Shown here: positions 50,033 to 53,384 of the stretch, piece after piece
Layout: the number at the start of each line of letters is the position of its first letter
Numbering within the stretch: position 1 is the first letter of the stretch
Origin: Fibrella aestuarina BUZ 2
GTDB lineage: Bacteria; Bacteroidota; Bacteroidia; Cytophagales; Spirosomataceae
Reading direction: 5' to 3'
DNA length: 64,000 bases
NCBI RefSeq assembly: GCF_000331105.1
Contig: NC_020054.1
Coordinates: 6,711,445 to 6,775,444, forward strand
The notes under the pieces: model-generated
What the model saw: the letters and a program-made list of their open reading frames with translations, nothing else
Database searches by the model: none
Told to the model about the DNA's origin: nothing
Position numbers and translations under genes: made by a program

Positions 50033-50231
50033 AGACCACAAAGGACGCAAACCACCCGCAACCTCGCTACCTACGCTTAATAAATAGCAAGGTTCTGCTT
50101 TACAGCTTTTGTATTCATTTAATTAGCTTGACATGCGTACCCGAAGAAGCATAGCAATCAATCCCGGCACCTAATATCAATACACTCACAATCAGTAACT
50201 TACTATTAATCGACTTTACGCTCTTTATTAT

Positions 50232-50238
50232 GTTGGGT
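50232..50238 (+). other. Lone GTTGGGT core at the left edge of the cassette-like array
   Basis: The heptamer matches GTTRRRY and equals the right-hand cores of the repeat elements at 51059 and 51612, but no left partner (RYYYAAC) lies before it. It marks the switch from the normal chromosome to AT-rich DNA, as an attI-like or first-junction site would (inference). Confidence 0.5.
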
Positions 50239-50320
50239 GAAGGGTCCAAGCTGCTGTTCGTATCTCAGCATATGACGACAGACAGCGCGGGTCACAGGGC
50301 AGGTTTTAGGCTTTCATTTC

Positions 50321-50402
50321 GGGGCCACCTGCGACAATTGGTACGTCTCGGTTTGGTAGGTCTTTTTTCGAGTCGGGCGGGCCACTTGTCGCAGGTGGCC
50401 CC
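50321..50402. repeat. 17-bp perfect inverted repeat in the first cassette leader
   Basis: GGGGCCACCTGCGACAA at 50321-50337 and its exact complement at 50386-50402, separated by 48 bases, just upstream of the 50425 start. Confidence 0.85.
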
Positions 50403-50424
50403 AGTTGGGGATATTTGTAATTGC

Positions 50425-50943
50425 ATGAATAAGCTGTCATCGTACTATAAACCGCAAGAACTAAAATGGTTTGACATCATCGGTTGGTATCAAATTATTG
50501 GTGGTTCAACCGGAATTGTGTGGCTGTTATGGGCTTTGACCCAAAGCACCAATCTTTTATTATGGCTGGCCATTGCGCTCGGTTTAGGACTAAACAGTTT
50601 TTCGATATACGCAGGCAGGCAACTGTTGAAGAACCGTGATTTTGGGCCAACTTACCTCATTCAGGCGATTCAGATTTTAAGCTTTATTGGATTGGGCTTG
50701 ACTTATCAGGTTGTTATTGGCTTAGCCTTAGGCGCGGGCTTCGAATGGATTGAGAATGCTGATATAGTTGCTAATTTCAAAATTTTATCCCTTTATGAAT
50801 TTAAGTACAGTCCTGCCCAGACAGACAAGATTCGGGTCGTAATCAATTTTATTCCTGTGTTCATTATCAACTATTTAATAAAGCGGAAGGAAGAAGCAGA
50901 AGATAGAAAGCGTTTAGCTGAGTACTCGTCGGCAAACGTTTAA
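50425..50943 (+). CDS. Cassette gene 1: small membrane protein, unknown
   Basis: 172 residues from ATG 50425 (MNKLSSYYKPQELKWFDIIGW); the frame is open back to 50230 but that part covers the junction core and an inverted repeat. About four hydrophobic segments (34-50, 52-70, 85-110, 145-160) and a charged C-terminal tail (KRKEEAEDRKRLAEY). Visibly AT-rich codon use compared with flanking genes. No family recognised. First of four genes in an attC-like array. Confidence 0.7.
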   Translation: MNKLSSYYKPQELKWFDIIGWYQIIGGSTGIVWLLWALTQSTNLLLWLAIALGLGLNSFSIYAGRQLLKNRDFGPTYLIQAIQILSFIGLGLTYQVVIGLALGAGFEWIENADIVANFKILSLYEFKYSPAQTDKIRVVINFIPVFIINYLIKRKEEAEDRKRLAEYSSANV

Positions 50944-51002
50944 ATCGCTCCGCGTGTGTCGCTCTTCGGCGACAGGCAGCGCGTCCCGTGTTCGGGCCGA
51001 CA

Positions 51003-51065
51003 GCCCAACCGGGCGTGTGTGTAAAGGTTCGCTACGCTCACCATCACCACACGCGGTCGTTGGGT
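51003..51065 (+). repeat. attC-like element A
   Basis: Left core GCCCAAC (51003-51009, fits RYYYAAC) and right core GTTGGGT (51059-51065, fits GTTRRRY) are complementary. Inside are GTGTAAAGG (51019-51027) and CACCATCA (51039-51046). GACAGGCAGCGCGTCCCGTG precedes it at 50971-50990. A 63-base imperfect hairpin with unpaired bases, as in integron attC sites. Confidence 0.6.
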
Positions 51066-51236
51066 GCGGGTTCATAATGGGAGTTCAAGGTGGGTTACTC
51101 GCGACAGTGGAGCCGCCCCGACAGGCAAGTTTAGGCTCATTTGCCCGATTCCGGTCGACAGATTGCACGGCTCGACAGGTTAGCTTTGGGCTCGTTTTGC
51201 GGCTTAGGTTGACACAAGAAATTAGAGCAGTTGATA

Positions 51237-51455
51237 ATGAAAAAAATAAGTAAACCGATACTGATTCTTATCATAGTTGAGCTTGCTTTGTTAGCCTATT
51301 ACTTTTACCAACAGCCTCTTTGTGAGCCATGTTTATCGAACACAGATTGTCCGCCCTGTAGAAGTAATGAACAAATTGGAGCAATCTGGGTGGGAATTTT
51401 TATTGGGGTCCTTGCAGTAGGTTATTTATTTTTAGTTCGTCGACATACAAAGTGA
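51237..51455 (+). CDS. Cassette gene 2: short double-helix membrane protein, unknown
   Basis: 72 residues from ATG 51237 (MKKISKPILILIIVELALLAY). Two hydrophobic helices flank a Cys-rich loop (CEPCLSNTDCPPC, a CxxC...CxxC arrangement) that would face the periplasm and could form disulphides or bind metal (inference). Basic C-terminal RRHTK. AT-rich; preceded by a leader with repeated GACAG words. No recognised family. Confidence 0.65.
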   Translation: MKKISKPILILIIVELALLAYYFYQQPLCEPCLSNTDCPPCRSNEQIGAIWVGIFIGVLAVGYLFLVRRHTK

Positions 51456-51533
51456 CAGAATGTGATTGCCCTTTTTGGTTCCGCGTGGGGTTGCTTCCCG
51501 TTGACAGGCAGCACGTCCCGTGGGCAAGGAGCA

Positions 51534-51618
51534 GCCCAACATGATGAGTGTGTAAAGGTGCAGGTACCTGTGTTCAGGTAGCTAATTCACTCACCATCAA
51601 CATCTGCGGGCGTTGGGT
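51534..51618 (+). repeat. attC-like element B
   Basis: Left core GCCCAAC (51534-51540), right core GTTGGGT (51612-51618), with GTGTAAAGG at 51550-51558 and CACCATCA at 51592-51599. TGATGAGTG on the left can pair with CACT...CATCA on the right leaving a 3-base bulge. GACAGGCAGCACGTCCCGTG precedes it. 85 bases long. Confidence 0.6.
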
Positions 51619-51848
51619 GACCCGTCTAAGTAAGCGGGTATGCCACGTAACGGGTGACAGAATAACGAGTTGATAGCGAACATTCTTTATTGGTTCGCCA
51701 CGTACTTGTTGACAGTTTAGTCACCGTTCGACAGCACGATTTTTATGGTGTTTGACATCTGCTTGGACAGGTCGGTCACTGCTGGACAGAACGAAAAAAT
51801 GCGTTTGGGGCACGGGAGGGACTATCCTGATAAATTAGTTTTAGAAAT

Positions 51849-52250
51849 ATGGACAAGAGGGCTTTTGAAACTTTAAACCAATACCTTGAAAGAGTGCCAG
51901 CCATTGAAAAACCGATCGCCTTTGGCTCAGACGACAAGGAATTTTGGTGGGTAAAATTTAGTATCGACATTACCCACAAATTGGCTTGGCAAGCCGTCCA
52001 AGAAATTGGTTTTGTCTGTAATTATTTGTCTGTCAGTGAACGCTTACCCACCGTGTTTTATCCAGTTTCACCACCGCCTTACCTAAACGGTGGACCGAAA
52101 GACTACTTGTCATGGGTAATTGAAACAAAAGATAAGGATTTTAAACCGGGTACGCTGATGAAATGGTTGGAGGGGCGTCTTCCTCAGCCCGTTGACGACT
52201 TAACACAGTGGGTATCTGGCGAAGCAGAGGAAGGTGATGAAGATGATTAA
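51849..52250 (+). CDS. Cassette gene 3: small cytosolic protein, unknown
   Basis: 133 residues (MDKRAFETLNQYLERVPAIEKP), soluble and acidic, with a WWVKFSIDITHKLAWQAVQEIG helix-strand region, a proline-rich middle (YPVSPPPYLNGG) and a very acidic end (GEAEEGDEDD). It resembles small uncharacterised proteins of Bacteroidota but I cannot name a family. The 393-base gap before it contains element B and a leader with five GACAG words. AT-rich. Confidence 0.65.
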   Translation: MDKRAFETLNQYLERVPAIEKPIAFGSDDKEFWWVKFSIDITHKLAWQAVQEIGFVCNYLSVSERLPTVFYPVSPPPYLNGGPKDYLSWVIETKDKDFKPGTLMKWLEGRLPQPVDDLTQWVSGEAEEGDEDD

Positions 52251-52309
52251 ACTTACCGCTCTGTGGGGGCCACTTACCCCGCACAGGAAAACGGCTGGAT
52301 AGGCCAGCG

Positions 52310-52392
52310 CGGCAACCCTACGCAGGCGAAGGTGTAACGTACCTGATTGTGGCTTATCTTATTTCCACCATCAGCCTTTTCGTTCGTTGGTG
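52310..52392 (+). repeat. attC-like element C, degenerate
   Basis: The inner boxes GTGTAACG (52332-52339) and CACCATCA (52366-52373) are conserved and in the same order, but the left core is worn (CGGCAAC, 4 of 7) and the right core is shortened (CGTTGGTGC in place of CGTTGGGTGC, at 52385-52393). Placed after gene 3 exactly where A and B lie after genes 1 and 2. Confidence 0.45.
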
Positions 52393-52570
52393 CAGCCAAC
52401 AGATAACGTGTGTTTGCCGGGCTTCGTGCGACCTGCCGCACGGCTCGGATAGACAGGCGGTTTACTCGTTAGGCCGATTTCGGTCTGCAAGTGGACTGCC
52501 ACGTTATGCTGGCTCAGAGATGCATTTCAAATTATCAGCTGACAAGTCGAATTGATGTAGAATAATTGAA

Positions 52571-52978
52571 ATGATGAAAACATATCAATCCAAATTAGGC
52601 CCAGAATTATTCCTTATTCTTTTAGTAGCACTAGGAGGACCTTTCTTGTTAATGGTTTACGACAGAAATTGGCCTGGAATAAGTATTGTTTTTGTGAGTA
52701 TCGTATTCGTAGCTCATGTAATTATGACTACCTATTACCAAATTTCAGGCAACGAGTTAACCATAAAAGCGGGATTTGTTTTTAATAAAACAGTGGACAT
52801 AACTACAATCAGACGGGTGGTATCTACTCGTAACATTCTTAGTGCACCAGCTACCTCGCTTGATAGACTTGAGTTAGTTTACAATCGCTATGACAGTGTG
52901 CTTATATTTCCAAGTGATAAGGCGGGTTTCATTAAAGATTTATTGGCGGTGAAGGCGGACATAGAAGTAAAACTATAA
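52571..52978 (+). CDS. Cassette gene 4: small membrane protein with PH-like domain
   Basis: 135 residues (MMKTYQSKLGPELFLILLVALGG). Two N-terminal hydrophobic helices (12-30, 36-54) are followed by a beta-rich domain: YYQISGNELTIKAGFVFNKT, TTIRRVVSTRN, LELVYNRYDSVLIFPSDKAGFI. This is the pattern of bacterial PH / YyaB-type (DUF1200-like) domains. Function unknown. Last gene of the array, AT-rich, followed by element D. Confidence 0.7.
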   Translation: MMKTYQSKLGPELFLILLVALGGPFLLMVYDRNWPGISIVFVSIVFVAHVIMTTYYQISGNELTIKAGFVFNKTVDITTIRRVVSTRNILSAPATSLDRLELVYNRYDSVLIFPSDKAGFIKDLLAVKADIEVKL

Positions 52979-53041
52979 AATTCCGTTGCGCATAGGACCA
53001 CTTTTGAGTGACAGGAAGCACGTCCTGAAGGCAAAGTTTCA

Positions 53042-53117
53042 ACCCAACAAGCAAAGGTGTAAAGGCCGTGGTACGTTCGTTCAGGAAAGTATTCAGTGCG
53101 CCATCAGCCCTTTGGGT
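53042..53117 (+). repeat. attC-like element D, partly degenerate
   Basis: Left core ACCCAAC (53042-53048) fits RYYYAAC; GTGTAAAGG (53057-53065) and CGCCATCA (53099-53106) are kept; the right core is TTTGGGT (53111-53117), with T replacing the first G. GACAGGAAGCACGTCCTG precedes it. Beyond it, 53118-53384 shows no gene. Confidence 0.5.
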
Positions 53118-53384
53118 CATTAGATGGAATTAAACGCCTCTCATAGCGCTTGGGCTTGGTGACTCTAACGTACCTGCCGGTTAGGCCGTCTCTGCTATTC
53201 CTGTTATCAGGCATTCAGTGGGTCAGTCTACTTCTTTTCCTACCTCCTTGTAAGTCCTCATCATTTGCTATATCCGTAGTTGAATTTACGAAAACACGGC
53301 CTGCAAGGCTGTAGACGGTGGTGTTGGGATTAACTTGTGGGGCGTTCCCTCGCTGGGTACGTTATACAACCTCCCTAATTCTTC

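Follow-up and report, generated by a model that had tools for sequence, protein, structure and literature searches.

We analyzed a stretch of 64,000 nucleotides from Fibrella aestuarina BUZ 2 (contig NC_020054.1, positions 6,711,445 to 6,775,444; hereafter the window) that contains an array of four small gene cassettes, each ending in an element that resembles the attC sites of integrons. Our overall conclusion, to which we give a probability of about 0.85, is that the four cassettes make up a satellite array within an integron-like system, and that a tyrosine recombinase from a non-IntI clade of Bacteroidota likely assembled it. An earlier note on the window had proposed an array built by site-specific recombination, with the enzyme either elsewhere in the genome or part of a non-IntI system of the phylum. 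This proposal is supported: further elements, variation in cassette content and an enzyme that heads arrays all uphold it. Comparison of sequences establishes a family of elements that form one-way arrays and have a covarying hairpin arm, a recombinase gene and attI-like site at the head of many arrays, variation between two species that starts at the attI core, and a cassette that is nearly identical from core to core in two species although its neighbors are unrelated.

The array in the window

All features of the array are on the forward strand. It is headed by an attI-like site at 50168-50239, recognized with the attI profile described below, whose core GTTGGGTG occupies 50232-50239; the earlier note had started its description at 50232, which is this core. 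Cassette 1 (50232-51058, 827 bp from core to core) lies between GTT cores at 50232 and 51059. Its gene (50425-50943) encodes 172 aa from the start chosen in the earlier note, in an open frame of 237 aa that begins at 50230, and has no Pfam family over the cut-off. The attC-like element A (51003-51065) is of the short class and scored 66.4 bits (51000-51069) with the covariance model R1 described below. Cassette 2 (51059-51611, 553 bp; GTT cores at 51059 and 51612) has a gene of 72 aa (51237-51455) without Pfam matches and the attC-like element B (51534-51618), of the long class (75.1 bits at 51531-51622). Cassette 3 (51612-52385, ~774 bp) runs from the core at 51612 to a degenerate core, GTTGGTG, at 52386, with a gene of 133 aa (51849-52250), again without Pfam matches. 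Its attC-like element C (52310-52392) has degenerate cores and scored 25.1 bits (52312-52395; E 6e-4 when R1 searched the window alone). Cassette 4 (52386-53110, ~725 bp), at which the array ends, has degenerate cores at both ends. Its gene (52571-52978, 135 aa) encodes a bacterial PH domain (PF06713, 70 bits) and is the only one of the four with a Pfam family over the cut-off. The attC-like element D (53042-53117) has the degenerate right core CATTAGA and scored 49.6 bits (53039-53129). Elements A, B and D were among the rows used to train R1; element C was not.

These features agree with most of what had been read from the window. The four related elements each lie 3' of an AT-rich gene on the same strand, at the positions given earlier, and the unit sizes of 827, 553, ~774 and ~725 bp are correct. 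The GC content of the four genes is 0.37-0.44, compared to a median of 0.57 for the 39 open reading frames (ORFs) of at least 200 aa in the window. The shared boxes occur in fixed order as claimed: the pattern GTGTAAMG-N8-38-CRCCATCA is found four times in the window, with an average of 0.00 in 100 shuffled sequences. A right core of GTTRRRY in every element had also been claimed, and this fails for C and D, where the core is degenerate. Genome-wide, the pattern occurs five times, always on the forward strand, and the reversed control gave no matches. We took the fifth match, at 3.40 Mb, to be chance because it is absent from the covariance model list. Matches on viral contigs (at least 120 stretches) were likewise read as chance, the pattern being so short. 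A search of Rfam gave two matches, both below the gathering scores.

The elements form a family with a covarying hairpin

We searched 200 genomes from the family of the host. The strict box pattern was present in 43 of them, and the reversed pattern in 4. From 33 sources we collected 179 distinct pattern matches, of which a few are spurious or out of place. The typical layout is CCCAAC, a spacer mostly 9 or 10 nt long, GTGTAAAGG, ~9-44 nt in the middle, CCATCA, usually 12 nt, and GTTGGGT, and the elements fall into a long and a short class. The model R1 was trained on an alignment of 56 elements chosen by hand, nearly all from the 179 matches, including A, B and D and leaving out C. In these 56 elements the fold consists of a core stem of six invariant pairs, an arm of eight pairs and a GG/CC pair, with an internal loop between the arm and GG/CC in which the conserved letters GTAAA lie opposite ATCA. 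The arm is 94% paired, and six of its eight pairs show double changes. There were 113 double-changed cells, all in the arm, compared to 35.8 ± 8.4 in shuffled alignments, not one of which reached this number in 500, and a maximum of 24 in slid controls. RNAalifold independently arrived at a nearly identical fold. The outer cores match RYYYAAC and GTTRRRY, which is the core rule of attC sites, so that the elements combine the imperfect palindrome and the cores of attC sites.

The earlier note had suggested a covariance search for further elements, and such elements exist. R1 found 13 matches in the host genome (E ≤ 0.01). The window accounts for three of them; of the ten others, five are clustered at 2.0786-2.0827 Mb and five lie in other places. 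Among the relatives, 48 of the 200 genomes had matches at E ≤ 1e-6. Over 57 sources there were 317 matches at E ≤ 0.01 (300 of them listed), with some sites counted twice where sources overlap. All 168 pairs of neighboring elements less than 4 kb apart have the same orientation. The 161 core-to-core units, from 26 genomes, have a median length of 840 bp, and where the longest ORF of a unit is at least 100 aa it runs in the direction of the element in 117 of 124 units. The 124 cassette proteins of at least 90 aa fall into 107 families, 97 of them with a single member. One-way arrays of diverse genes are thus found here as in integrons. In a Pfam scan of 70 of 126 cassette proteins, the commonest family was PDDEXK_2, with three members, and PADLOC gave matches such as AbiLi (7e-85), with one member each in the rows shown.

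In arrays of genera g1 and g5 (for example L163 and L168), unlike cassettes have conserved non-coding stretches in common near the core. GACAGG-type motifs of these stretches also occur in the spacers of the window. Such stretches might carry expression signals.

A tyrosine recombinase heads many of the arrays

A search for tyrosine recombinases, also suggested in the earlier note, yielded a candidate non-IntI enzyme that heads many arrays. A Pfam search of 18 array-bearing relatives revealed one kind of tyrosine recombinase. In 15 of them its gene lies on the strand of an element and no more than 8 kb upstream of it; in the remaining three the recombinase was 41 kb off (G040), present only as a fragment (G157) or far off (G079). 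A profile built from eight of these integrases matched 41 of the 200 family genomes at E ≤ 1e-80. Both integrase and elements were found in 36 genomes, the integrase alone in 5, elements alone in 12 and neither in 147 (Fisher p 6e-24, a value that ignores kinship, with 24 of the 36 doubly positive genomes in genus g5). For the analysis of loci we used 33 that contain the integrase; L302, L303 and L305 were left out and are uninformative on arrays, because their contigs end within 1.4 kb past the gene. The first element lies 0.6-4.3 kb downstream on the same strand in 27 of the 33 loci, some of which had been fetched because an array was near. Among the 15 loci kept that were fetched for the integrase alone (L286-L300), an element was found in 12 and an attI match in 14.

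The best 120 of 3254 homologues were from Spirosoma, Fibrella and Nibrella and were named tyrosine-type recombinase/integrase, site-specific integrase or XerD. Matches of at least 350 bits in a sample of 395 phylum genomes all lay within the family of the host, and the next scored 304. The best 80 loci from a search of genome contigs with the integrase alignment did not exceed 48% identity, and no title among them named Spirosoma or a near genus; no arrays were found at these 80 loci (17 hairpin matches, 16 in the reversed control). Among the records counted in plasmid and phage collections (5000 for plasmids), there were no matches at 60% identity or above.

In two diverged genera, a small, conserved-looking ORF (70-92 aa) is convergent with the integrase and overlaps its 3' end (L301 8995-9207; L302 9500-9739; L303 1174-1389; L304 13919-14167; L213 10880-11125; L181 5788-6066).

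An attI-like site lies between the integrase and the array in most loci

A core of the form GTT(A/G)GG(T/C) is present 340-420 nt past the integrase stop codon in 24 of the 33 loci, with 0.05 per locus expected from the density of cores. These loci have a common layout, comprising an inverted repeat, a stretch like TTGCGTACAATANTAT and then GTTGGGTG, after which the sequences diverge; L297 does not have this layout and L299 has it weakly. A profile built from 22 of the 33 loci, all from relatives and leaving out L297 and L299, matched downstream of the integrase in 29 of the 33, so that an attI-like site beside the integrase is a feature common to this system and integrons. For the site in the window the score was 29.4 bits (1.98 Mb of loci searched, E 1.1e-6), and the only other match in the window had E 8.4. 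From the site, it is 765 nt downstream to the start of the first element and 1296 nt to that of the second. The profile also matches at the head of arrays without an integrase in the fetched stretch, namely that of the window and satellites in G004, G169, G130, G175, G056 and G040; in G157 and G196 its matches adjoin integrase remnants. In G130 and G169, the satellite attI is nearly identical to the main attI of the same genome. The close likeness of attI copies within G130 (L177/L178) and within G169 (L172/L173) suggests recent copying or homogenization of docks.

The attI-like site bears on the idea that the XerCD proteins of the host build the arrays at dif-like sites and that the array recombinase is incidental. 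In pdif modules, genes are mobilized between Xer-type sites by XerCD; these are dif sites of ~28 bp without a covarying hairpin. The right half of the attI-like site (TGCGTACAA..TATGTT) may resemble a dif site. However, pdif modules are flanked by short dif sites and not by hairpins of 70-95 nt, and here a dedicated recombinase lies at a nearly fixed distance from attI. In addition, Xer-like best matches were found in all 18 genomes searched, whereas the arrays track the dedicated enzyme. We consider assembly by XerCD very improbable.

Cassettes differ between related genomes

The locus comparison called for in the earlier note revealed two related species whose cassettes at an orthologous locus are not the same, and the break on the left falls precisely on the GTT core. 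Genomes G038 and G002 share one locus, in which the left flank, including the integrase, is 89-95% identical and collinear through the final base of the attI core. Beyond this core there are eight cassettes by pattern in G038 and three in G002 (one of them detected by R1 only), and then the flanks rejoin. One cassette is common to both genomes; its two copies agree at 608 of 611 positions between core and core+8, and the sequences next to them on the left and right are unrelated. G004 has two copies of one cassette, in arrays that contig coordinates place 3.8 Mb from each other. The copies align with 767 identities, 8 mismatches and 9 gaps, and the right edge is at the core. The outcomes that the earlier note had named as speaking against its reading, that is, the same four genes kept by all related strains, no further elements, or breaks off the core, did not occur among the related species.

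Other comparisons of boundaries were less clear. A first test took in 346 homologous unit pairs, but its result was blurred by non-coding leaders that are conserved between unlike cassettes, and for this reason only 30 pairs were kept, those covering at least 60% of the longer body. Two of these 30 are clean, the G038/G002 pair and the G004 pair; in the other 28, divergence puts the edges near background (0.62-0.69 identity). The neighboring peptidase gene, present in five of five genomes of the genus, did not lead to an empty site for comparison: in the four relatives, the gene that flanks the array opposite the peptidase was not found near the latter.

The elements could instead be transcribed hairpins or dispersed repeats, with units spread by homologous recombination and the recombinase a mere neighbor. 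A conserved covarying hairpin is compatible with RNA, the elements sit 3' of genes, and the long leaders conserved in some genera confuse the unit edges. Against this, order is strictly one-way (168 of 168 pairs), the shared cassette breaks at an 8-nt core on both sides, the attI-like site ends in the identical core, and the recombinase is at the head of arrays in two diverged genera whose element variants differ. This explanation therefore seems to us quite improbable, and we favor movement of the cassettes by site-specific recombination.

The array enzyme is not an IntI

An IntI-specific profile, TIGR02249 (cut-off 265 bits), gave 187 bits with the array enzyme P0001, in two stretches that skip profile positions 179-238. 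A positive-control IntI scored 394 bits in one stretch; it was used because TIGR02249 had no match in 14 control genomes. No protein scored over the cut-off in any of the 48 element-bearing genomes. Consistent with the skipped stretch, the extra domain specific to IntI is missing: the array enzyme has 14 residues where the chain of 2A3V (IntI4, which we take to be VchIntIA) has 60. In an AlphaFold model (mean pLDDT 82.8, pTM 0.47) there is no helix between H283-296 and H314-327, and there is an extra N-terminal domain (residues 1 to ~95, about 110 aa). Fifty Foldseek rows were listed, all recombinase folds, with XerA (5HXY) first and IntI4 (2A3V) next among the PDB entries; neither these rows nor Pfam families gave an identity for the N-terminal domain, for which a HARP-like domain is one conceivable candidate. 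Arg247, Lys272 or Lys275, His337, Arg340, His363 and Tyr372, presumably the catalytic residues, are invariant in an alignment of 12 rows.

In a tree of 61 rows picked by hand from lists, the array enzymes form one clade (17 of 17, support 100/100) and the IntI proteins another (16 of 16, 100/100). The array clade groups with other Bacteroidota enzymes (98/91) and is thus outside the IntI clade; the exact place of IntI is unsure because the long branches of IntI and Xer meet (a warning of the tool). According to older surveys, intI genes occur in the Bacteroidetes/Chlorobi group, and Bacteroidota are among the bacteria with integrons (passages of PMC2426708 and PMC8618304).

The array could instead be the remnant of a classical IntI integron, a cluster of attC sites lacking integron integrases (CALIN), in which true attC sites were left by a former IntI. 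The cores fit RYYYAAC and GTTRRRY, the units are one-way and of cassette size, and the window has four sites and no integrase. However, TIGR02249 is over its cut-off in none of the 48 element-bearing genomes, the array recombinases (17 of 17) are apart from IntI (16 of 16), the inner boxes are conserved in sequence, the sites occur together with a non-IntI enzyme, and the array has its own attI-like head. We regard an IntI remnant as highly unlikely.

The host integrase and the satellite in the window

The earlier note had reported no integrase in view. This holds for the window and not for the genome, in which a gene of the array-associated family is present at 2.07 Mb. The coding sequence of this copy (G000:C2:2073692-2074887) is broken in two, with residues 1-185 in one frame and 185-390 in another, and behind it lie an attI (56.9 bits) and five elements. 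The array in the window, at 6.76 Mb of the same contig, is therefore a satellite. No further piece of the integrase was found in the host genome by the profile at E ≤ 1e-80. Because the sole copy found is split, this strain may no longer have an active system; alternatively, an assembly error may account for the frame shift. Only ~180 bp separate the neighboring ORF from the attI core of the window, and the satellite may have been filled in trans or may have lost an integrase of its own.

There is an element match (57.7 bits) at G000:C2:6711241-6711333, 112 bases before position 1 of the window, with a weak attI-like match (15.6 bits, E 0.02) ~0.5 kb upstream. A similar element and attI-like pair is present at 4.22 Mb. 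These pairs are possible one-cassette docks.

Diverged element types

In genus g27, a diverged integrase (~410-420 bits) heads arrays of six elements (L301) and two elements (L304). Together with its nearest kin it is 43-46% identical to the first row of the alignment. The cores are TCCAAC/GTTGGA, a compensatory change, and most of the elements have the arm AGCATT../..AATGCT together with the GTAAAGG and CCATCA boxes. Upstream of the g27 integrase, a 216-nt unit is repeated in 13 tandem copies (L301 1-2892).

We also analyzed 19 other loci of the phylum (L334-L352), with enzymes that scored 238-298 bits to the profile. There was no adjacent array in 18 of them. The exception, L349, is from another family; at 9722-17104, a 308-aa recombinase is followed by small ORFs on the same strand, and between these ORFs stand long imperfect palindromes, marked by GCTAAC/GTTAGC cores and a recurring ACGTTATGTGCA. 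This is possibly another integron-like type of array.

Discussion

In the mechanism we propose, the array recombinase of the non-IntI clade would be the catalyst and is predicted to cut inside the GTTGGG core. The attC-like site would react as a folded single strand and the attI as double-stranded DNA, and satellite arrays such as that of the window would be filled in trans.

Several observations weigh against this proposal. All the evidence comes from the comparison of sequences. The right edge of the variable block in G038 and G002 is not base-exact, ~15 nt just after the left core differ between the two copies of the G004 cassette, and boundaries are clean in only 2 of the 30 well-covered unit pairs. 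The concentration of doubly positive genomes in one genus reduces the weight of the co-occurrence. The integrase is missing from 12 of the 48 element-bearing genomes, and R1 elements from 5 of the 41 integrase genomes (two of these have a diverged element type, and the other three are those of the contigs that end just past the gene). Among the 33 integrase loci, six have no element by pattern and four no attI match. In most integrons the integrase and the cassettes do not have the same direction, and here they do. Finally, the enzyme has no I2 helix, which is held to be necessary for single-strand recombination.

This last point leads to the alternative that the system recombines double-stranded DNA only and that the hairpin arm has another role. 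According to PMC7790495 (abstract and passages), only integron integrases have the I2 helix and carry out single-strand recombination, and I2 is the underlying innovation; the lack of I2 in the array enzyme fits this alternative. On the other hand, pairing in the arm is kept under sequence change, with double changes in six of eight pairs, as recognition of a folded strand predicts, and there is one core at each end of the element, as in attC sites. We think recombination of double strands only unlikely, if well worth bearing in mind, and retain the folded-strand mechanism.

The system is filed as a second, separately rooted type of integron, being integron-like on the structural counts tested, and neither as an IntI integron nor as a CALIN, because the array enzyme stays below the TIGR02249 cut-off, lacks the IntI-specific domain and lies outside the IntI clade. 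Since the recombinase lies outside the known clade of integron enzymes, integrons would have arisen more than once. We somewhat favor the view that they were invented at least twice, here by a Bacteroidota recombinase without I2 and with its own N-terminal domain, which would act on folded-strand sites and a double-stranded attI and serve several docks in trans. A cassette system with integron architecture and a candidate enzyme lacking I2 makes the claim that I2 is exclusive testable by comparison, and tools keyed to IntI would likely miss such arrays. We did not find the system reported in the literature searched (titles and the starts of abstracts; most subscription journals and all of bioRxiv are outside this coverage).

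The closest parallels are sedentary chromosomal integrons and CALINs. In common with them, the system has an integrase, an attI and a one-way array of small diverse genes with imperfect-palindrome sites at their 3' ends, RYYYAAC/GTTRRRY cores, variation that starts from the GTT core, and arrays without an integrase. It differs in that its enzyme falls outside the IntI clade and has the extra N-terminal domain of ~110 aa but no I2 domain; the attI has an inverted repeat; the integrase is transcribed towards the array; and satellites without an integrase keep an attI-like site. The inner boxes GTAAAGG and CCATCA are conserved, unlike the inner sequence of attC sites, which is generally not. The catalytic and SAM-like domains align with those of IntI4 (2A3V) and XerA (5HXY), the top PDB matches. 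XerA/XerD-like recombinases of Bacteroidota are the nearest relatives in the tree, and many have a similar N-terminal domain, but 18 of the 19 fetched loci have no adjacent array. Like pdif modules, the system would move genes between recombinase sites; unlike theirs, its elements are covarying hairpins.

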